Positions 10,542-54,600 of a DNA stretch of 64,000 nucleotides are shown here, piece by piece. A model generated the notes under the pieces. That model was given only the letters and a program-made list of their open reading frames with translations, was not told the origin of the DNA and did no database searches. Made by a program: the position numbers and the translations under genes. Position 1 is the stretch's first letter. The number at the start of each line of letters is the position of its first letter. Source of the stretch: Flammula alnicola (lineage: Eukaryota > Basidiomycota > Agaricomycetes > Agaricales > Strophariaceae); NCBI GenBank assembly GCA_015499995.1, contig JADNRV010000024.1, positions 372,001 through 436,000 of the forward strand, written 5' to 3'.

Positions 10542-13411
10542 TCCTGAACTACATCAACATTGCCAGTATCAGAATGAAACGAGTATGGACTTCCAAAGTT
10601 CCAGAACACTCACATCGACTGGCTTCAGCAGCTGTTGCCCGATTCTGCACGAGTTCGATCTGGAAAATGTTATGAAAGTATCATAGTATGTAAGCGAACG
10701 GAAGTCACATTCAGCTTGAGAACATACCCAGAGGAGGAAGGAGATAGCCAGTATATATGAGTATTGTCAGCTATGCCTAAAATTAAATACCGACCCACTG
10801 CAATGTGTGAGACATGGTCAGTGAGCATAGAATGTCACTGGCAATGGTGTGGAGGCACATACTTGCTGGAGGTGCACAAAATCAGAGTGATTGCGACTGT
10901 CAGAGAGGCGATCGGTGCTCAACAACAAGTTCACTTACTTCCTGGAAATGCACAGGTGAGACGGAATCGTCAGAGGGTCAGTTGGTGCTCGATCAACAAG
11001 TTCACGTACAAGCTGGAAATGCGCAAGCAAGGCAGAATTGTCAGAGGGCTGGTCGGTGCTCAATCAATAAGTTCACGCACTCGCTGGAAATGTGCAAGTG
11101 AGATGGAATCGTTGGAGGGCCGGTCAGTGCGCAATCAACAAGTTCACGTACAACCTGGAAATGTGCAAGCAAGAAGAAATCATCAGAGAGCTGGTAGGTA
11201 CCCAATCAACAATTCACGTACAATCTGGAAATGCACAGATGAGATGGAATCGTCAGAGGGGCAGTTGGTGCTCAATCAATAAGTTCACATACATTCTGGA
11301 AATGCGCAAGGGAGACGGCATCATCAGAGAGCCGGTGGGTGCCCAATCAACAAGTTCACGCACAAGCTGGAAATGCACAAGCGAGACGGAATTGTCAGAG
11401 GGGCGGTCGGTGCTCAATCAACAAGTTGACTTACTTTCTGGAAACACACAAGTGAGATGGAATCGTCAGAAGGGTGGTCGGTGCCCAACAAGTTCACTTA
11501 CTTCCTGGAAATGCGCAAGTGAGATAAAATCGTCAGAGGGACGGTAGGTGGTCAATTGACAAGTTCACTTACTTCCTGGAAATGCATAAGGAATCGTCAG
11601 AGGGGCAGTTGATGCTTAATCAACAAGTTCACGTACATACTGGAAATGCACAAGGGAGAAGGAATCGTCAGAGAGCCAGTAGGTGCCCAATCAACAAGTT
11701 CACATACAATCTGGAAATGCACCGATGAGACGGAATCGTCAGAGGGCCGGTCGTTGCTCAATCAACAAGTTCACGTACATTCTGGAAATGCGCAAGCGAG
11801 AAGTAATTGTCAGAGAGCCGGTAGGCCCAATCAATAATTCACGTACAAGCTGGGAAAGAATGTCCAGTCCTCAATAAACAAGTTCACGTACATACTGGAA
11901 ATGTGCAAGCGAGACAGAATCGTCAGAGGGGCGGTCGGTACGCAATCAACAAGTTCACGTACAATCTGGAAATGCACGGATAAGACGGAATCGTCAAAGG
12001 GGGCATGCACAATCAACAAGTTCACGTACTCGCTGGAAATGGGCAAGCAAGACGAAGTCGTCAGAGGGCCAGTCGGTGCACAATCAACAAGTTCACGTAC
12101 TTTCTGAAAATGTGCCGGCGAGACGGAATCGTCAGAGGCGCGGTCAGTTGCGCAATCAACAAGTTCACGTACATCCTAGAAACGATCACAGGCGAGGAAA
12201 TTTGAGAATAGTGCAAATGCATCTCTACCAAATGCCTGTATTTACCTGCTCGACTGGCATAATCTGAATATTGCGAAAGTCCACGATGCTCAGGTCCCTC
12301 AAAGGTGGTTCATCTGTATGTATGGCCGTATTTTCCCAAATGAAGCGTCGTTCGCAACGCCGACTAGAATGCAGCCATCATGAAATGCAAGGAAGAATGG
12401 CAAATTACGCTTACCACTCTAACCATCCTTCGTCCGGCATCACACCAACATCTGTTTTATAACATCGTGGACATGTCGTCCTCTGAAGCGCAGCAGACTC
12501 CGGCGTCAGCTTTACCCTCCTCACCTTCATGCTCATGACAAGAACCGCCCCTTTCCTCACCACTGAAGCCCATTCAACTGGATCAGACTTTACGAACGAC
12601 TTGCCATCCTCGCTGGAAATGCTGTATTCGCGCTGCATAACATAGTCGTGACCGATCTTTCCCTTGAAGTGATACATCAGAATATCGTGAAGTTTCTGTA
12701 ACTGACATATGAGTGTATACTCGAGTAGAAGGAAATGCACATAAAAGACGCACGTCTGGTGAGTAGCAAAAGTCCATTGGCAACGTCATCGGTTTCCCGA
12801 ATGCATCTATCAGGATCACGGCGTTTTCACAACCGTACCCAAGGGATGGAGGTAGTTGCTTCTGTATTGTGACTATCTCTTTCCTTATTGAGGCCAAGGC
12901 CTCTCTGTTCACATCGGCGTAGTAGGAAGTTAAGGAACTGAGGTAGCATGGCATTAGTGACGATGAAGATGTTTAGTGCGAGATCCAACTTACATTCCAG
13001 TCCACTCAAAAACACTGTAATATTTTGTTTATGTTGCGAAAGCTTCTGTCTGAACTCTGCAACGTCGGTGGCCTTAAAAAGACCCCACCCGATTTTGCGC
13101 CAAGAGGAGCTCCGTCCCCCACCACCGAGAGCTTTCTGGTACGACTTGATACGATCCCAGAACTTCTCCAGCAACTTGAGACACGTTGCGGCTTCTTCCT
13201 TGATATCCTGTACCACAGTTTCATTGGTGGGAGTTGCACGAATTCGGTCGTTCACAAATAGCAAGGCGCGATGGAAAGAACGCAGTTCGCTGATCAAGCA
13301 TTGATACTCGTATGAGGCTCCCGTGCTGTCGTTGAGAGCTTTGTAAATTGAGAGAGCAAGGGTGGCGGCGGCGACGATGTCGCCAAAGGAGCTTGGAACG
13401 AAAGGAAGCAT
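10542..13411 (-). CDS. Fungal ubiquitin-like-domain (ULD) protein with C-terminal zinc ribbon; 3' part runs through a single-codon exon array
   Basis: The start MLPFVPSSFGDIVAAATLAL (13411) opens an alpha-helical region typical of the Agaricomycete ULD family (ISELRSFHRALL, SWRKIGWGLFKATDVAEFR). It is followed by the ULD itself (SLGYGCENAVILIDAFGKPM, then VMQREYSI and VVRKGAVLVMSM) and a CPRC...CRRC zinc ribbon. Main exons: 13411-12990, 12937-12754, 12701-12415 and 12363-12246, which sum to 1011 nt or 337 codons in frame. Exon 1 keeps frame only with a weak GTTGGA donor; the better GTAAGT four bases earlier would break it, so a frameshift is possible. After the VEQ codons the gene enters about 20 intron-like units separated by 3 nt each. 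A plausible last exon, 10659-10614, reads IELVQNRATAAEASR, then a stop at a splice junction. The family is uncharacterised; protein-protein interaction is a reasonable guess. Confidence 0.7.
10861..12175 (-). repeat. Tandem array of about 20 intron-like 71-bp units with 3-nt spacers
   Basis: Minus-strand units read GTACGTGAAC (variants GTATGT, GTAAGT, GTGCGT) ... CTCTGAC ... TTTCCAG, followed by a variable triplet and then the next GTACGTGAAC. Triplets lie at 12175-12173, 12103-12101, 12032-12030, 11965-11963, 11894-11892, 11849-11847, 11781-11779, 11710-11708, 11639-11637, 11575-11573, 11504-11502, 11437-11435, 11366-11364, 11295-11293, 11224-11222, 11154-11152, 11083-11081, 11012-11010, 10941-10939 and 10865-10863. 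Most units are 71 bp (range 45-76). Donor, branch-like CTGAC and acceptor are kept in most units; the triplet is the most variable part. Plus-strand open frames here (10764-12205) exist only because a 71-bp period rotates through the frames; they are not genes. Confidence 0.9.
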
Positions 13412-23071: not shown

Positions 23072-26000
23072 ATGTTCGCCAACTCCCGCAATATTCATAT
23101 TAGTGGTGGGATATTTACCGAACAAATTGACAATGCTGACAGCCGACGAGGTATGTGACTCTTCCGTCGATCGCGATTGGCGATGCTAATTCCATGCAAA
23201 CTATACTAGGCTGGGATATACTCAGGCAGAATGTCGCTTTTGGCGCTTTCCACAACTCGGCCGAGCAATACGATCTTCCAAAATGTCATCCCGGAACTCG
23301 AGAAGCTATCCTCATGAAAATCACGGAATGGATCGAGGACCCCGACAACCTGCGTTTGTTCTTGTGGATTCACGGCCCGGCTGGCTCAGGAAAAACCACC
23401 ATCGCATTGACCATCGCGGAGATGTGCTACAAGGCAGGCATTCTCGCCGCAGGCTTCTTCTTCTCCCGGGCGGCAGCAGGGCACTACAACGACAAACTCT
23501 TCATTTCCACCATTGCTTTTCAAGTCTGTATTTTGATCCCAGAAACTCGCGAGATCGTCGGGAAAACCGTCTTCAAGAACCCCTCGATCCTGTCTCAATC
23601 TCTTCCCATCCAACTACAGGAGCTCATCCTCGGCCCTCTCAACCACGCGTTGCAGGATGAGAATGTGATGACCCGCCTTCGACTACGACCAAAAGTGATT
23701 GTCATCGATGGGTTGGATGAATGTGGCGATGGGAAGTCCCAGCGACGAATCCTTGATACCCTGGCGGCAGCCGCACGCCAGTTTAATATCCCTTTACGCT
23801 TTCTCATTTCCAGCAGGCCAGACTTCGAAATTCGACAGGCATTCCAATTCACTCTGCTGAGCTCTCTGACGGAAGGACTACCCCTCGACGACACCTACCA
23901 TCCAGATCGCGATATCCACACGTTTCTCATTTCTAAGTTCGACGAGATAAAGCAGCAGCATCCGCTCGCGATCTATCTTCCTCTCATATGGCCGAGCGAG
24001 GGGGATATTTTCACGCTTGTCGACAAGGCCTCCGGGCAATTTATCTATGCTTCTACCATTGTGAAGTATATCGAGTCTCCCAGGCATCGGCCCGAAGACA
24101 GGTTGGGGTTCGTTCTGGGTCTAACACCTGCTACGGCCAGGGATAGTCCATTTGCTGACCTTGACGCCCTCTACCACCAAATTCTGTCTTCAGCCGCGGA
24201 CCCTGAACGACTGCTCGAGGTATTGGCTTGCATCATCCTTCCATCAACGGGAGATCATTTGACGATGTATCCTCATGAGACGGAAGATCTGAGGTCACCG
24301 GCTAGCATTGAAACAATACTTGCTTACCAACCCGGGGATGTGGATGTTATATTATGCGATATGCACGCAATCCTCAATGTGCCGCGAGATAGAACACGCG
24401 ACATCGCCTTGTACCACGCATCCCTGGCCGACTTCCTTCTTGACCAGTCACGATCTCGGGATTTCTTCGTCGATGTTGAGAAGTCGCACGCAAATCTCGC
24501 GAGGAAGTACATACAACTCATTTTTAGATCACCTGATGGTATGTAGCATCCATTTCTAGCATTGGGGAGAACGATAAGCACTTACCATATCTTCTCCGAA
24601 GATCGCGAGCGTGCACTGGTTACCAGTTTTCTTTTGAGCCATTGCCTACAATCGTGCCTTACCAGCGAGCTTTCAAATGATTTGCGTAACTTGGACCTCT
24701 TTTCGCTTGTGGTACATGCTGTGGATTTCGCTTACTATCAAAATTTCCGACTGTGGGTTCGCTTTTTGGATTGGCTACGGGAAAAGGTCTGATTTAAACA
24801 AAAACAATCGATCGAGGAACTGAATAGTTACTCATATCTTATAGGGTTCTTTGGATTCTACCAAAATTCTCCTTGAAACCCATCTCCGTTCTCAAGATGA
24901 TTGGGTACGACAGCAACTTACTGGCTATTCCCCCGAATATCAGTCTTTTTTGGCTGCAGCTCTAACTTTTGACTATTTCGACCTCATTAATCGAGCAACG
25001 TTATTTTACGTCCTGGCGTACAGTATCACCGCTGAACGAACAAATTTTCGGGAAGTCACGAGTTACCTTCACCAAAACCGTTTCTTTCTTGAGATCGTCG
25101 AGATCAAGAAGCAATCGCTTCAACCTCTTGCTCATAACTACACAAGAGTGTTGGGTCCTACAATACGTAACTTCCTCCTGGACCCACTACATGCAGGTCC
25201 GCTCTTCGTTGACGGTAACAAGTATGCTGTGCTCTGCAGCAAGCTCGCGGGGTTTCTCTATAAGAGGTGAGTCTGAAATCGCGAATGTCATCTGAGAATA
25301 GCAGGCCTTGAATGTGAATCCTTTTTCTCTTCGGGCAGGCAACACGACCTTCTTCCAGAGATAATATCCTTCCTAGCTTTTCAAATCTCCCAGTACGGCG
25401 GAGATAGGCCCTGGATACCTACCGAGGAAGATATATTGGGGGATGCCTTCGAATTTCTCAGATCGGCTCTGCCCAAAGCTACACCAATACCGCGTCTCGC
25501 AGAGCTCATGCGAGATCACGCACTTCAATACCCAAAATACAAACCCGCTCAGCCGTAAGCGCTTGCTCGAAATTTAGTGAGCAGGAAAGGATTGCTTATT
25601 GGGTGATTTGCCCCAGGCTGAAACCCAAGTTGCACCTAAGAAAAAAACGGAAGTTTCCCCAACAATTCAGACACCAATTTGCTGGACGACGACAAGGTGC
25701 AGCTCTTGCCGCCTTGGAATATATAAAAGTATGTATCATGTCCCACCCCCCCCAGCGCTCCTGAACACAACCCTGATCACTGATTTGTTCAAACTGTAAT
25801 CGTGCTACCATGTAGCGCTGCGAAACACCATATTTGGAGCATTCAACAGCGGACTCTAATCACGAAATTTGCTTGATTTGTTCTGAATATCCTTACAACT
25901 GGCTGAATGGTGCCGAGTTTTCGATACTCTTCGGGCCTAAATCTCAAGCCAGTGTTGACGACGCTGTCAATGGCGATGAGTTGGGGGATGTCCCACAGGC

Positions 26001-30239: not shown

Positions 30240-33090
30240 ATGTTCGCCAACTCTAACAACATTCTGATCAGTGGTGGGACATTTGTCGAACAGAATCAGA
30301 ATAAGGCTAGCCAACGAGGTACGTGAGCCTTCTATCCATGAACGAAACTGATTCCGAGCGATCTATGCTAGGATGGGATAAACTCACGCACAACATCGCT
30401 CCTGGCGCTTTCCACAACTCGGCGGAGCGATATGATCCTCCAAAATGTCATCCAGGAACGCGTGAGGCTGTCCTCAAGAAAATCATGGAGTGGATCGAGG
30501 ATCCCGACAATTTGCGGTTGTTCCTGTGGCTATACGGCCCAGCTGGGTCAGGCAAATCCGCCATCGCACAGACCATCGCGGAGATGTTGCAAAAAGCAGG
30601 CATTCTCGCTGCAAGCTTCTTTTTCTCTCGGACGGCGGCAGGGCGCAATAATGACAGACTCTTCATTCCCACCATCGCCTTTCAACTCTGTCTGTTGATC
30701 CCCGAAACTCGTGATATCGTTGGGCAAACCGTCGATCAGGACCCCTCGATCTTTTCTCGATCTCTTCCTACCCAACTGCAAGAACTTGTCCTCAACCCTC
30801 TGAACCGGACCATGCAGGACGAGCAGTTGATGACGCGCCTTCGACAGCGTCCAAATGTAATCGTAATTGATGGGCTGGATGAATGCGGCGATGGGAAATC
30901 CCAACGACGAATCCTCAACGCCCTCTCGGGAGCCGCACACCAGTTTAATATCCCGATATCCTTTCTTATTGCCAGCAGACCCGAACTCGAAATTCGACAG
31001 GCATTCAACTCCAACCCGCTGAGCTCGTTGATGCTAGGATTACCCCTCGATGATACCTACCTTGCGGATGACGATATCCGCAAGTTTCTCATATCCAAGT
31101 TCAGCCAGATAAAAGAGGAACATTCACTCGGAATTTATCTTCCTGCAATATGGCCGAGGGAGAGGGATCTTGAGAAGCTTGTCCAGAAAGCATCCGGACA
31201 GTTTATCTATGCGTCCGTCGTTGTGAAATATACTGAATCACTCAGGCATCGGCCCGAGGATAGGTTGAGAGTTATTCTGGGATTATCGCCTTCTCTTGGC
31301 AAGGATAGTCCTTTTGCTGTCCTTGACGCCCTCTATCATCAAATTTTGTCTTCAGCCCAGGACCGTGAACGGGTGCTCGAGATCCTTTCTTTCATCATTC
31401 TTCCTGTGCCAGTGGAAGATCCCTTGGAGTTTGGATTTGACGACCAACAGACGTCGCCAATTTACATTGAGAAAGTCCTGGGTTACCAACCTGGGGATTT
31501 AGACATTCTATTGTCTGATATGCATGCTGTACTAAATATACCACAAGATAGAAGACGCAAGATCAGTCTCTACCATGCATCATTGGGAGACTTCCTTCTG
31601 GACTTGTCACGATCTCAGACTTTCTTCATTGATGTCAAAAGGGGGCATACACATATCGCCAGAAAGTACATACAGTTCATTCGGCCACATCTACAAGGTA
31701 TGTAACTCTCATTTCCAGTATTGGCGACAATGCTTCATCCTTTTTTCGCAGAATATTGGGGCCACTCGTGCGTTGTTCCCGCCCTTATGCTCCATTGCAC
31801 GCAATCGTGCCTGACTCCGGAGCTTTCAAACGATTTGCGTGACATCGACTTCCTATCACTTGTTGTACATGTCAATCAGGTCGATGTTGTTGAAGCTTTT
31901 GAGTTATGGGATTCTTTTTTGGATTGGCTGCGGCGAGAAGTCTGAATTTTTTTCAATCCAATGAAAATTGACTAGTTGCTGACCGGCCTCTGCATATCTC
32001 TTCCTATAGAATGCCTCGGATCCCACAGACAATCTTTTGCAAAACCACCTCAACACCCAAGATAAATGGATAAGACGGCAATTCGCAGTCTATCCACCCG
32101 AAGCTCAGTGTTTTTTGGCTGCAGCTCTAACTTTCGAGTACTTCATGCACCGTCACGACAAGGCAGTAATCTGTCTTCTGGAGACAATTTTCCATGTGGA
32201 ACAACCAAATCTGCTGAAAGAGCGACAACCCCTCCACGGAGACACTGTGTTGGCAAAGTTCTATATCAACCTGTTTACGAACGCATGCGAGTTGACTCGT
32301 ACAGTATCGAATTTTCTCCTTGATCCACTTCGCGCAGGACCACTCTTTGTCGACGGGAACAAGTATGATATGCTTGCCGATGCACTGGCGGAGTTCCTCT
32401 TCCAAGTCCCAGGGTGAGTCTGAAATTGCTTGATTTCATCTGAGCATGTTGAGAATGATTGTTACTTCGCAATACTTACAATTTACTCCCTGGCAGTCAA
32501 TGCGACCTGCTGAATGCGAAACCACTCCCGAAAGTGGAACCGCCCCTAGCCGAAATGCTTTGGGAGATACCTACTAATAAGGAGATATTGCAAACCGCCT
32601 TCAAGTTGCTTGGACTTGCTCTACCCAAAGCGTCAGCAAAACCACGTCTCGCAGAGCTCCTGAGAGATCGCACACTCCAATGTCCAAAATTCGAGTCTGC
32701 AAGACGAGAAGGGGCAGCTCTTGCCGCCTTTGAATACATAAAAGTAAGTGTAATGTCCCACCCTCACTGCCACTGGACTGAAACTTGATCACCGACTTGT
32801 TTAATCCATAATTGTGCTTTATCTGGTAATCTTCCACCACATAGCGCTGCGAAATTCCATTTTTGGAGCATTCTAGAGAACACACCGATGACGAAGTCTG
32901 TGTGATTTGTTCTGAATATTCTCATATCCAGCTGTATGACGACAACGTCGGCGATGGTTCCGATCATGACAACTTGGAGGACGCCACACAGGCGCACTTG
33001 AAGTTTTTTTTCCGAAGCACATTCGCCGGTCCGAGATTATCACAGACATTTCCCACTCGATTGGTCCCGATTCCTATTCCTAATCTATAA
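30240..33090 (+). CDS. NACHT-domain (NLR-like) protein 2, 829 aa, intact
   Basis: Six exons, 30240-30318, 30372-31697, 31752-31939, 32010-32413, 32497-32743 and 32845-33090, sum to 2490 nt. The N-terminus MFANSNNILISGGTFVEQ carries the GGxF motif. A CHPGTREAVLKKIMEWI pre-P-loop segment leads to Walker A GPAGSGKS (residues 82-89) and Walker B VIVIDGLDECG (about 190-196). Then come an arginine-finger-like ASRPE and the helical C-terminal half (YHASLGDFLLDLSRSQTFF, LTFEYF, DPLRAGPLFVDGNKY). The tail has RCEIPFLEH and VCVICSEY, also seen in NACHT 1. No WD, ankyrin or TPR repeat follows, so any ligand-sensing part is the helical C-half. The expected role is ATP-driven oligomeric sensing in allorecognition or defence; this is inferred from the family, not shown. 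Confidence 0.88.
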
Positions 33091-49614: not shown

Positions 49615-51963
49615 CTACCACCATCGAGGGTCGAGGTTTTGGCTTGCAAGCCTTGCCTTCGCCGCTCTGTTCCTCATCATGATCATTTCATCGAGGAAGA
49701 AATTATACATATCAACTGACATCTCTCGGCAGATCGAATGGAACCCACCCAACCAAACATTTGTCTGCTCTGCTATTGATGTGTTGAAGAACCAGCCCTT
49801 GCCGTTCTCGCCTAGAAGTTCTGGAAAGAGAGCTGGGTTGCAGTTGTTTTGACAGAAAGTGTCCGTCTCTGCGTGTTTGTTGGCGAAATGGAACACGTCG
49901 ACGGCAAGCCCAACATTCTTGAAATCGGGGTCATTTTTAACGTGCTTTGCGACACTGCAGTTGTTGTCGAATATGATGTGGTTGGGCATGGATCCGTCCC
50001 GATACGTGCGCTTGATCATTTCCTACAAAGCCAATTCTAAATCAACTAATGACGTTCAACAGTAATAATAAATGATTGCACAAACCACAACTGCAGTGAT
50101 CGACTCTGCATGATAAAATGTTTCCCTCGCTATAATCATCCCACAAGGTGCGACGATGATCTGCTCATTGTGGGTCCGTGAACGGCCAAACTTTGCACGG
50201 ATCTTCTTTTTTGCAGATGGGGCTGTAGGAACTGTGGGCTGTATGACTGGGATTGCATCATTATTACTGATGGTTGCATTCAACGAAGCACGAGCGAGTG
50301 CAGTATGTGTGACTGCGTCCTCCTCGGAAGGGATGACTCGATCTCCGATGATTTCGTATGTCTCGTCGAGGTCGTCGTCATCGAGGTCATCGTCGAGGTC
50401 ATCATCTTGTTCGATAATGTGAGCAATAGGAAGGTCGAGAGCTTCACCATTTTTTGGATGGGCAACCCTCGCTCTCTTCAGTTTGTCCTTCAGTTGAAAC
50501 GTCGCTTGTCCACGTTCGAGATGGACGGCCTCGACTCGTTGATGAACGGGGTCGTTACATGTCCGTTTGTCAGGTGCCGATATCCTTTCATTGCAGCCTA
50601 CAATTGCGCATTTTTGATTAAAGTTGACATGCATAGGACAGAAGCGATGACGTTTATTGGCAAGAGGAATGGTGCAATGAGGTACACCACATGTCGTGCA
50701 GCCCATTGCATTCCCATCCATGACAACTGCATGAACTGTAAGTGGCGCTAAAAGTTATACGTGAAAAGCTTGTTATTACGATGGGTGTCGATTACTTACG
50801 TTGTCCATCTTTAGCCGGGTATTCACGCACGCACTTCTTACATCGGTGACGAAGCTCTGCTTGGCCATATAGACGGATGCGATCATTTCTCTCACGCATT
50901 GCTGCCTTGTACCGTTCAGACTGCAAGCCGCTATGGGGGACTTGAAGGACAGTGTTTCGCTTTTGGTGATCCTCAAGCAAGGCTAAGAGGATAAAGGCAT
51001 GAGCCACATTCTTTCCGTCGAGTTTGCCTTTGAATTTCCACGATTCAGGGATTTTCTTTGTTGTCGTTTTCTCGTGCGTGTTCAAGTAGATCGCGGCGCA
51101 ATTGGCAAAGGAAACCCACGCAACATTGGTGCTTGTACGCCACATATCGATAAGACAACGTTCTACAAATTGATGATCCGCAATTTGGAGGATGTCAGGT
51201 GGATTGTCATAATAAAACCTTCTCTCGTTCTTCATGTAGAAATCTAGGTGATAGTCAGTATTGCAGTCTGCCAAAGTAAATGAGCATAAACCATTAGTGA
51301 ATTAGTAGCCCTCACAACATACCTTTACATGTCAAAAAGCAGGAATGAACCGGAATTGGTCCTTCATCGAGAGTATAGAGGATTCCCTCGCGCTGGGTTG
51401 CAACCTGAAGTTTTCTTCCACGATCCGTCCGTGTACAGTCGGGATTGTTGCAGAGCTGTGATGGAGGCCAAAGATTACGAGCTGAGGCTATGTAGTAATG
51501 AATTTAGGGCTCGAAATTTCAGAGGGTAGAAACAACGAACCGAATCCTTTATCCGTGCCATGATCCTTGAATGCAGCTGACACAGCCTTGTCATCGAGGA
51601 TATATGCTGACCAAACAAGCTCTTTGACAACTGTCCAGCACTCCTCGACCTCCTTTTTGCTTATAGCACAGCTTGAAGCAAGAAAATCGATGACGCTGAC
51701 AGGAAGGAACCGGGGAACAATGTTGGGAAGATGGGAAGACTGTTGGGCAAGCAGTATCTCATTTTTCAGCCTTGAAGCGTATTGAATAAAGCACGAGAGC
51801 TTGAAAATGTCGCGTGAACCCTGCTCCTTGTTGATAGCGTCAAGTAGGCCTTGCATGGAGGAAGATATGAGATCGTGATAGAATTCTGGATCAATGTCGC
51901 GTCGCTCCTACTGATCTCGTGACCGTGAACCGTCAATACTAAACTCTTGATGATTTCAAACAT
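49615..51963 (-). CDS. KDZ-type transposase-like protein A with CxC5/CxC6-like cysteine clusters
   Basis: Exons 51856-51541, 51487-51323, 51267-50800, 50735-50086 and 50022-49615 join in frame (668 aa from the ATG at 51856). A short upstream exon (51963-51940, MFEIIKSL) joined by a 40-nt intron would extend the N-terminus. The first Cys cluster is LCNNPDC...CFLTCKDCNTDYH (CxC5-like). The second is CTTCGVPHC...FCPMH...CAIVGC...CNDPVH (CxC6-like). The C-terminal core has IIFDNNCSVAKH, VDVFHFANKH and AEQTNVWLGGFH, giving a D...D...E set expected of an RNase-H-fold DDE-type transposase. CGMIIARETFY marks the start of the core. Compared with KDZ B, all three acidic residues are kept, so activity is possible. 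Transcribed away from KDZ B through a shared promoter. Confidence 0.75.
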
Positions 51964-52355: not shown

Positions 52356-54600
52356 ATGGAGGATCTCAATATGCAACGTATCCATGAGCTTTTATCGAGG
52401 CACCCAGGTCTTCCGCAAGCAATCGGGATGGATAAGGCTATTCGATTCATACGGCTAACCGCTTCTCTTAAGCGCAGCATTATCCACGCGCAGAAGCCGG
52501 GATACAACCAGGAAGATGCCCCCGAATTACTTCCTGACTGCGTTCATGAATTCCTTGGAAGCGCTTTGGATCTGAGTGATGAATTTGTGCAGGGATGTTG
52601 GGACACTTTCAAGCGGACAATATGGCTATATGACCCTGCGCTTCACTCTTCAGCTGCCGACGCGAAGGTGTTCCATAAACATGCCAAAGGGCATAATCTA
52701 GGTGAGTCATTTAAGCACTATAACCACGGACTTCAACTGACATCAGTTAAACTTTAGCCTCACGGTCGCTCTACCCACCTTGTGTGACATGCACAAACCC
52801 TCTTTGTGCAAAGGACACTGAACTCCTTCGCAAAACGACGAAGGCTGGTCGAAAAGTTGTCCTTTATACACTGGAGGATGGCGCATGTGCGGCATACCAT
52901 TATAAACTTGTCTGTCCTGGTAGGCAGCCTTGTCAATTCAAACACAATTTCACGCAAGATTCTGACCGGGGTTTCTTCTAAAAGCTTGTAAAACAACTTT
53001 TCACAATAACTATTCGGTCTACAATCGTATCCGAACCTATTATCCCGGCGTTCCCGATGCGATCGAAGTCGGAAAACATCAATTTGTGGCACGAGACGTC
53101 CTCAATATGTTTCTGAACTTGATGCTTATTTCATGGTCAGTTTTCATATTACTTTCCTATTTGAAGGATACATTGCTCACGCTAAATGAACAACAGGACG
53201 TCTGCTACCAATTGCGCGGAGGTGTACAATAGGTCTCTGTCTAAATCAGAAAATCAGCCGAAAGAGTGGAGCTTTAGCTTTGATCTTCGTTCCGAACACA
53301 TCTGGAATGGGATAAGTCATCTGGCCATTTTGGAACATTACGAACGGGAAGGCGAAATACTCACGGTACCACATGGATTCGACCAGAAGGACCGATTATC
53401 CGAGCCTATTCGAAAGCGCAATAAGTTGTTCGAGGACGAGGGCCAGCCAGAATGGGCACATTACTGTGAAAAATGTGTCCGCTTTACCCTAAACGACAAG
53501 GGCGAAGCGACTGGTAAGTGGCTTCTGTGATGTCCTACTAGTAACTGAATGAGAACATCTTTAGAAATGGTGCGTGCAATTGTCAGTGATGGGATAACCA
53601 TCGGGCATCCCTGCTGTGGTGTTGCACACTGTACGGAGCCATTGGCAAATGTCAAGAGAGATCGATTCTGTCCTGGCCACCAATATGTTCTAAAAATCTG
53701 CGCGGTCGAACGGTGTGAACGTGAGGTCGAAACTGGGTACCTTACTTGCGACGACCCAATACATCGTAAACTTGAAGAGACGCGAAAGCGTCGCAATGCG
53801 GCAAATTTTCAGCTACTACCTCAGCTTCAACGGACGACCGTATCTGCTCCACCTGACGAGGATGTCACTCAGTCTCTTCAAGCTGAAGGAGAAGCAGTTG
53901 ACGAAGGACTTGAAGAAGCTGATCTCCCTGCAGATCTGTCGACGGATGCGGGCCCGGTTTCAGATGCGTGTCCACAGAAGCCTGACTCTGGAATTCATCG
54001 GGTTAGTGCTCGCTTCGGTCGCCGTCAAACACATAATGAGCAACTCCTGGTCCGTCCTTGTGGAATGATTATTGCACGCACCACGTTCTATGGCTCCGAA
54101 ACAGTCCCTCAAACTGTGGTATGTTTTTCTTTGCTGCCCGTCCAACAAGTATCTGAAAACCGTAGGCCTTTCTCAAGAAGGTATTCAAAACACCGGGTTC
54201 CATGCCTGAATTTTTCATCTATGACAACTGTTGTGGGGTATATAATCACCTTCTCGCCCAAAAGGATCCCCTTCTCAAGACTGTCGGCTTTCCCGTTGAC
54301 GCTTTCCACTATGATTGCAAGCACAGCCGAACGGATATTGTGTGCCGCGAACATTGCAACCCTCGACTCTTTCCGGAACTCCTCTTCAAAGACGGTACCT
54401 GGTACTTCAATTCCTCAAAATGCGAACAGATTAATGTCTGGTTAGGTGGATACCACGCAATTCTTCGTGAAATGAAGGCCGAGCGGTATGAATTTTTGCT
54501 TGATGAGTTGATCATGAGAAAAAATCGGGCGCTCAAGGCCAAGCTCGAGAAAGAGGACGTCCTTCCAAGCTATATTCCAGGACTGCGATACAATAGCTAA
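52356..54600 (+). CDS. KDZ-type transposase-like protein B with CxC5/CxC6-like cysteine clusters, 654 aa
   Basis: Six exons, 52356-52701, 52758-52919, 52985-53135, 53197-53513, 53565-54118 and 54166-54600, sum to 1965 nt without a stop. The N-terminal helical part (LTASLKRSIIHAQKPGY) precedes a CxC5-like cluster (CVTCTNPLC...YKLVCPAC), an NCAEVYNRSL block, a YCEKCV pair, and a CxC6-like cluster (CCGVAHC, RFCPGH, CAVERC, CDDPIH). The core has RPCGMIIARTTFY, FIYDNCCGVYNH (D530), VDAFHYDCKHS (D555) and CEQINVWLGGYH (E597), a plausible D-D-E triad. A LLDELIMRKNRALKAKL helix ends the protein. Related KDZ elements are known in basidiomycetes. This copy shows no frameshift. Convergent with accessory gene B. 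Confidence 0.78.

Follow-up and report, generated by a model that had tools for sequence, protein, structure and literature searches.

Background

The closest described system is the NACHT-ANK gene family of the truffle Tuber melanosporum, in which, according to passages in PMC4986451, PMC10197012, PMC3689799 and PMC9815663 that cite Iotti et al. 2012, codon-sized or 3-bp microexons occur in numbers given as 'multiple', 'tens' or 'dozens' and are diversified by alternative splicing. A preliminary description of the locus studied here had stated that no array of this kind was known; the truffle reports show that this was wrong and that the kind is already known. Excerpts from PMC10526429 describe the micro-exon genes (MEGs) of Schistosoma mansoni, with exons of 3–81 bp (mostly 15 bp) and introns of 0.1–5 kb. 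Isolated ultra-small exons are on record, in the corresponding excerpts, from Arabidopsis APC11 (1 nt, PMC4674806), Fusarium CYP621A (1 nt, PMC12940212) and Drosophila homothorax (3 bp, PMC7392893), indicating that spliceosomes, fungal ones included, can include exons of 1–3 nt. Among the best-ranked papers of our literature search, which covered few subscription journals, neither such an array outside the truffle NACHT-ANK genes nor an analysis of repeated introns with single-codon exons was found, and the excerpt of PMC3778014 contains nothing on microexons.

Here we analysed a stretch of 64,000 nt from the agaricomycete Flammula alnicola (contig JADNRV010000024.1, positions 372,001 to 436,000), referred to below as the window, and compared the intron array in it with its relatives across the genome assembly (74.4 Mb, 861 contigs).

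Results

The array in the window

On the minus strand of the window, 20 consecutive GT..AG segments of 42–73 nt run from 12245 to 10862, with exactly 3 nt after each of them (Table 1). The chain of about 20 introns with 3-nt spacers claimed in the preliminary description is thus present, refined to 19 segments of the repeated type plus one ordinary intron, since the segment leading into the array is not a copy of the repeat; the exon borders proposed for the two sides (12363–12246 and 10659–10614) likewise agree with the sequence. The repeated intron is mostly 68 nt long and reads GTACGTGAACTTGTTGATTG...CCTCTGACGATTC...GCATTTCCAG, the last segment of this type differing in its 3′ half. Tandem Repeats Finder found the array independently, with a period of 71. 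When the window was scanned for YAG-N(k)-GTRNG junctions, the minus strand gave a chain of 20 at k = 3; no other k between 0 and 12 produced a chain longer than 2 on either strand, nor did k = 3 in 20 first-order Markov controls.

Given this geometry, any skip of single-codon exons leaves the frame intact. The codon CTT beside the 42-nt intron 6 may, judging from the sequence, be skipped. The further single-codon exon TGG, which lies outside the repeats, was present in all ten fully parsed copies of the gene, and its donor is GTCGGT in the window copy, weaker than the GTAAGT of several sisters.

Table 1. Exons, introns and single-codon spacers of the array gene in the window, in the direction of the gene
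Feature	Position	Strand	Remark
Exon 1 of the ULD_2 gene, ATG at 13411	12994..13411	-	one base shorter than in sister copies
Exon 2	12754..12937	-	
Exon 3, most of the ULD_2 domain and first half of the CxxC zinc ribbon	12415..12695	-	
Exon 4, second half of the zinc ribbon	12246..12363	-	phase 0 end (..ATG CCA GTC GAG CAG)
Ordinary intron leading into the array	12176..12245	-	70 nt
19 repeated-type introns with single-codon spacers between	10866..12172	-	42–73 nt, mostly 68
20 single-codon spacers (putative exons)	10863..12175	-	would encode DKRIYLNIYEEKLNIVRLEQ
Spacers 1–5	GAT 12175-12173, AAA 12103-12101, CGA 12032-12030, ATT 11965-11963, TAT 11894-11892	-	
Array intron 6	11850..11891	-	only 42 nt, without CTGAC
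Spacers 6–10	CTT 11849-11847, AAT 11781-11779, ATT 11710-11708, TAT 11639-11637, GAA 11575-11573	-	
Spacers 11–15	GAA 11504-11502, AAA 11437-11435, CTT 11366-11364, AAT 11295-11293, ATT 11224-11222	-	
Spacers 16–20	GTT 11154-11152, CGA 11083-11081, CTT 11012-11010, GAA 10941-10939, CAA 10865-10863	-	
Non-repeat intron 3′ of the array	10798..10862	-	
TGG, further single-codon exon outside the repeats	10795..10797	-	between two non-repeat introns
Exon IELVQNRATAAEASR	10614..10659	-	starts in phase 0
Last exon, ..FQEILP then stop TAA	10529..10548	-	

The host gene and its surroundings

The gene carrying the array encodes a ULD_2 domain (Pfam PF22893), which scored 63.7 bits in the sister copy L012 against a cut-off of 24.5, and 42 bits in the window copy. 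A zinc ribbon (CxxC..CxxC) upstream of the array was recognized by reading the sequence. The Pfam profile search of the product gave no match to NACHT or ANK, and a PigL_N-like N-terminus stayed below the cut-off. The frame of the window copy is shifted because its exon 1 is one base short, which may mean that it is a pseudogene or that the assembly has an error here; intact sisters exist.

Eight copies were assembled, a set that leaves aside the parsed copies L014 and L021. Seven of the eight, all but the window copy, have an uninterrupted frame through the four upstream exons and enter the array in phase 0, and the downstream exons run in frame via IEL/NEL...ASR to ..F[EQ]EI[LV][PS]-stop in seven of the eight; the usual C-terminal exons were not found in L013. 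Upstream exons gave dN/dS of 0.23–0.52 in all 15 pairs among six copies, and the family is therefore under constraint. The putative microexons are placed in the C-terminal part of the gene in the window, in its paralogues and in the second intron family described below.

Several other features of the window lie around this gene. Two NPHP3_N/NACHT (NLR-type) open frames, at 23140-24546 (+) and 30311-31705 (+), are 11–18 kb away from it. The open frames at 50059-50754 (-) and 53549-54442 (+) contain a CxC6 cysteine cluster, a feature linked to KDZ transposases. The genome has 66 matches to DUF6533, against none in 14 control genomes; this domain and the CxC6 cluster both point to an agaricomycete. 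The segment 40250-40800 has seven further near-identical copies (99–100%) elsewhere in the genome and is thus probably a recently active mobile element.

Paralogous arrays

The repeated intron of the window (family A) gave at least 201 matches in the genome, which, among the matches listed, lie on contigs C53, C157, C239, C323, C479, C560 and C643. Thirteen loci were retrieved, and ten were parsed in full. These ten copies contain 11 to 33 units and together 214 spacers without a single stop codon. The one AAG among the 214 is the end of an in-frame 33-nt exon within the array of L009 (3701–3733, plus orientation), which duplicates the end of the zinc-ribbon exon; behind it, the lead-in intron of the array occurs a second time. 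Acceptor and donor anchors were placed separately in all 13 loci, near-duplicates included: of 203 array junctions that had both, 202 show a 3-nt spacer, the single exception being a 2-nt spacer at the end of contig C239 (L017). Five further anchor matches (14 nt) sit in exon 1, outside the arrays. Outside these 203 junctions, one acceptor AG in L013/L014 is shifted by a base to give a 2-nt exon. One array intron of L012 has 35 nt, and array introns of both families span 30–76 nt overall; L018 is a fragment.

Near-copies among the loci are L013/L014, L019/L020/L021 and window/L012, leaving six non-redundant copies (L009, L010, L013, L015, window and L019), with some relatedness left between L010 and L019. 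The array family lies in clusters. C53 and C157 each hold four array genes, arranged alike in order and orientation (+,+,+,-), and the two contigs, which are 97% alike over 0.8 kb and, among the matches listed, only about 82% alike in two of the four gene pairs, are perhaps two haplotypes. L011, on C53, is a copy of the L015 array; the aligned parts of the two are 99.6% alike, and two insertions of about 1.4–1.5 kb interrupt L011.

A second, unrelated intron family

Searching the genome with the Pfam profile of ULD_2 gave 14 matches, of which 11 fall in family A loci and three in other places. Among these three are L023 and L024 on contig C108, both with an array of single-codon spacers behind the zinc-ribbon exon: L023 has 22 of them (LDEEFEFELDIEEFSRPEDIEL) and L024 nine (EEWETWLER), and each array continues into an in-frame QGQSPP..-stop exon. 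The intron repeated in these arrays (family B) is mostly 68 nt long, as in family A, and it showed no similarity to the family A intron beyond that of shuffled controls (P = 0.23). The 30 matches found for it in the genome all lie in L023 and L024, and 25 of the 26 measurable gaps between neighboring matches are 3 nt, the remaining one being 36 nt. One intron of L024 has 30 nt and is probably too short for splicing. Within L023, introns that follow identical codons resemble one another more than other introns do (P = 0.011), and CTT-GAT occurs as a repeated block; both observations point to unit duplication. No chain was found in the third ULD_2 gene, L022 (C13), or in L025 (C423), a locus resembling the N-terminal part only.

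Arrays may have arisen twice, or one ancestral array may have been homogenized to two different introns. The paralogous arrays, together with this unrelated intron family, back the earlier proposal of phase-0 single-codon exons between conserved ULD_2/zinc-ribbon exons.

Conservation of introns and spacers

Across the 115 array introns of the six non-redundant copies, GT and the G at +5 were invariant (115/115), the two AG columns were kept in 115 and 114 of 115, T at +6 in 98% and a branch-like CTCTGA motif in 91–98%. The remaining intron columns stood at 47–98%, many non-signal columns also being well conserved, and the highest entropy of all columns fell on the first two spacer positions. 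Eight arrays (six of family A and two of family B, units with introns of 55–80 nt) were compared for unit-to-unit divergence within arrays, which amounted to 8.3–23.0% in introns versus 49.7–81.0% in spacers; transition:transversion counts were 10431:5711 in introns versus 421:1623 in spacers. Intron pairs of the same array that were at least 95% identical (n = 33) had the same codon upstream in 21% and downstream in 27% of cases, and in L009 the spacers AAA and CTT occur despite 60 identical flanking bases.

Between sister arrays, 13 of 17 codons agree at matching positions in L010/L019, and 18 of 18 codons with 60 of 60 spacer bases agree in L012/window, where the introns differ by 3.6%. Codons that differ within an array yet agree between sisters indicate that the spacers are position-specific and not simply fast-mutating; on this comparison of sequences, spacers appear to differ by position as residues of a peptide would, and introns to be kept alike across positions. 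The fractions of differing bases in spacers versus introns of sister arrays were 7/57 vs 154/1289, 0/60 vs 47/1308 and 0/99 vs 14/2285. Spacer divergence between sister arrays is no higher than that of introns, nor is it significantly lower (P = 0.12 for 0/60 vs 47/1308), and purifying selection on the spacers in these comparisons, 7/57 vs 154/1289 included, gave no significant signal. Within family A arrays, the tendency of same-codon units to have more alike introns was weak in permutation tests on whole introns (P = 0.009 with introns grouped by the preceding codon, 0.39 by the following one) and less clear than in family B, and codon-to-flank linkage gave a low P value in one 8-nt bin (0.032) and not in the other seven of the eight bins around the spacer. 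This weak linkage suggests that unit duplication in family A was followed by much recombination.

Stop codons were absent from 153 spacers (122 of family A and 31 of family B), with 4.0 expected by column shuffling (P = 0.009), and AG occurred inside one of them, with 6.4 expected (P = 0.003), P values that are optimistic since several arrays are related and independence is overstated. By family, stop depletion reached P = 0.06 in A and 0.10 in B, and AG depletion P = 0.004 in A and 0.38 in B, so that stop depletion in family A taken alone is weak. The spacers of family A end in A or T in 120 of 123 cases and use nearly one codon per amino acid, unlike the ordinary exons of the same genes, in which third bases are even. 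A rule that the last exon base is A or T was rejected, since family B includes the spacers TTC, CTC, GAG and TGG, and the TGG exon outside the repeats also ends in G.

Discussion

Tandem repeats are common in introns, and the array might be a non-coding minisatellite within a single long intron (12245-10660) excised as a whole, its intron-like look being inherited from one duplicated intron. Both flanking exons are in phase 0, so that such an intron would preserve the frame, and a few units are degenerate. A neutral repeat should vary equally, yet spacers diverge by 50–81% and introns by 8–23%, a split on which a neutral minisatellite was rejected. Furthermore, the transition:transversion ratios of the two parts are opposite, the 115 copies retain GT, +5 G and AG almost unchanged, the spacers are depleted in stops and AG, and a second array has an unrelated intron with the same 3-nt spacing, all of which makes the minisatellite unlikely. 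The arrays could also have originated by insertion, an introner (intron-like mobile element) having entered a pre-existing exon behind every codon; an excerpt of PMC4457414 reports introner-like elements from fungi, and the spacers do look mutually unrelated though the introns are alike. Insertion should, however, be indifferent to phase and yield exons of varying size, whereas nearly every junction has 3 nt, and the matches listed for the two introns all fall in array loci or in a fragment on C323. The A/T-ending family A spacers are unlike the ordinary exons of these genes with their even third bases, and the block duplications in L009 and L023 carry intron and codon together, leaving insertion an unlikely origin.

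Another question, raised in the preliminary description with a C-terminus that could vary one residue at a time, is whether the array could work chiefly by alternative splicing, turning one gene into many C-terminal variants. Any skip would hold the frame, the array introns are much alike in sequence, and reviews, in the passages concerned, report alternative splicing for the 3-bp microexons of the truffle NACHT-ANK genes. Nevertheless, sister arrays keep position-specific codons, a hint that residue order is important, and random skipping would obscure that order. From sequence comparison, alternative splicing as the chief mode of action is possible, if somewhat less likely than not; as an addition, it is compatible with the explanation that we prefer.

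That explanation, which we consider probable, is that the spacers are real one-codon exons, predicted to be spliced serially into a variable C-terminal segment and spread by duplication of a 71-nt unit. A unit of a 68-nt intron and a 3-nt exon would have been duplicated head to tail in the 3′ part of the gene, each unit adding one residue without being able to break the frame. The spliceosome, acting by intron definition on short introns, would take out the array introns one by one, so that 11–33 (family A) or 9–22 (family B) single codons would come to lie between the zinc-ribbon exon and the conserved C-terminal exons. Recombination among near-identical introns, by unequal crossing-over and gene conversion, could add, delete and shuffle residues and at the same time homogenize the introns, and diversifying selection would hold the codons different between positions. 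The predicted product is a ULD_2 protein whose C-terminal segment differs strongly in sequence and charge between paralogues, and this segment plausibly serves as a recognition or binding surface; the clustering of the array genes and the two NACHT-type open frames 11–18 kb away fit, without proving, such a role. Against serial splicing, the frame across the flanking exons would likewise hold with the array leaving as a single 1.6-kb intron, and some units look unspliceable by their length (42 nt in the window, 35 nt in L012 and 30 nt in L024). Further points against this explanation are the 2-nt spacers of L013/L014 and L017, the frameshift in the window copy, the missing C-terminal exons of L013, the insertions in L011, the lack of significantly stronger conservation of spacers between sister arrays, and the weak stop tests of each family alone together with the AG test of family B.

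Our results also raise the tentative possibility that fungi have repeatedly used such arrays to edit a recognition surface residue by residue, with the introns serving as recombination handles and perhaps as interchangeable splice units, so that single residues of a protein segment could be gained, lost or swapped with no shift of frame; the two unrelated intron families, both in ULD_2 genes of one genome, and the truffle NACHT-ANK genes would then represent at least two, perhaps three, inventions. If spliced as read, one-codon exons would be repeated up to 33 times in a row, and the evolution of intron and exon would be cleanly separated, the introns being homogenized spacer DNA and the codon the variable letter. 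It would also allow a direct study of how spliceosomes deal with micro-exons in series. The arrays also suggest a route for residue-by-residue change in fungal recognition proteins, and suggest that gene prediction will miss such tails.

Comparison with known systems

Introner-like elements are near-identical introns in many unrelated genes, whereas the introns described here were found, among the matches listed, in the array loci and one fragment. The single ultra-small exons of APC11, CYP621A and homothorax, as excerpted, stand alone, and those of Flammula alnicola form arrays. Podospora HNWD-type repeats, according to a passage in PMC4986451, resemble the present arrays in that recombination keeps the units alike and a few codons per unit diversify; the variable codons there lie within a coding repeat, whereas here the conserved part is the intron and the variable part is the whole exon. 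MEGs, in the excerpts at hand, share many tiny exons, mostly multiples of three, variable products and clustered gene families with the arrays described here, and they differ in having long introns where these arrays have 3-nt exons and near-identical introns of about 68 nt. Iotti et al. are said to have likened, in 2012, the truffle microexon genes to schistosome micro-exon genes.

The truffle NACHT-ANK genes are closest: both are fungal multigene families with tens or dozens of 3-bp exons of which any skip stays in frame, and in both, as far as the truffle passages go, the microexons are tied to a C-terminal recognition region, a role that is plausible here. At the DNA level, tens of exactly 3-bp exons between GT..AG introns are present in Flammula alnicola as well. 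The truffle genes, as these passages describe them, encode NACHT-ANK immune-type receptors of an ascomycete with reported alternative splicing, whereas the genes described here encode ULD_2/zinc-ribbon proteins without NACHT or ANK in an agaricomycete, with predicted splicing, and thus belong to another protein family and apparently to another phylum.
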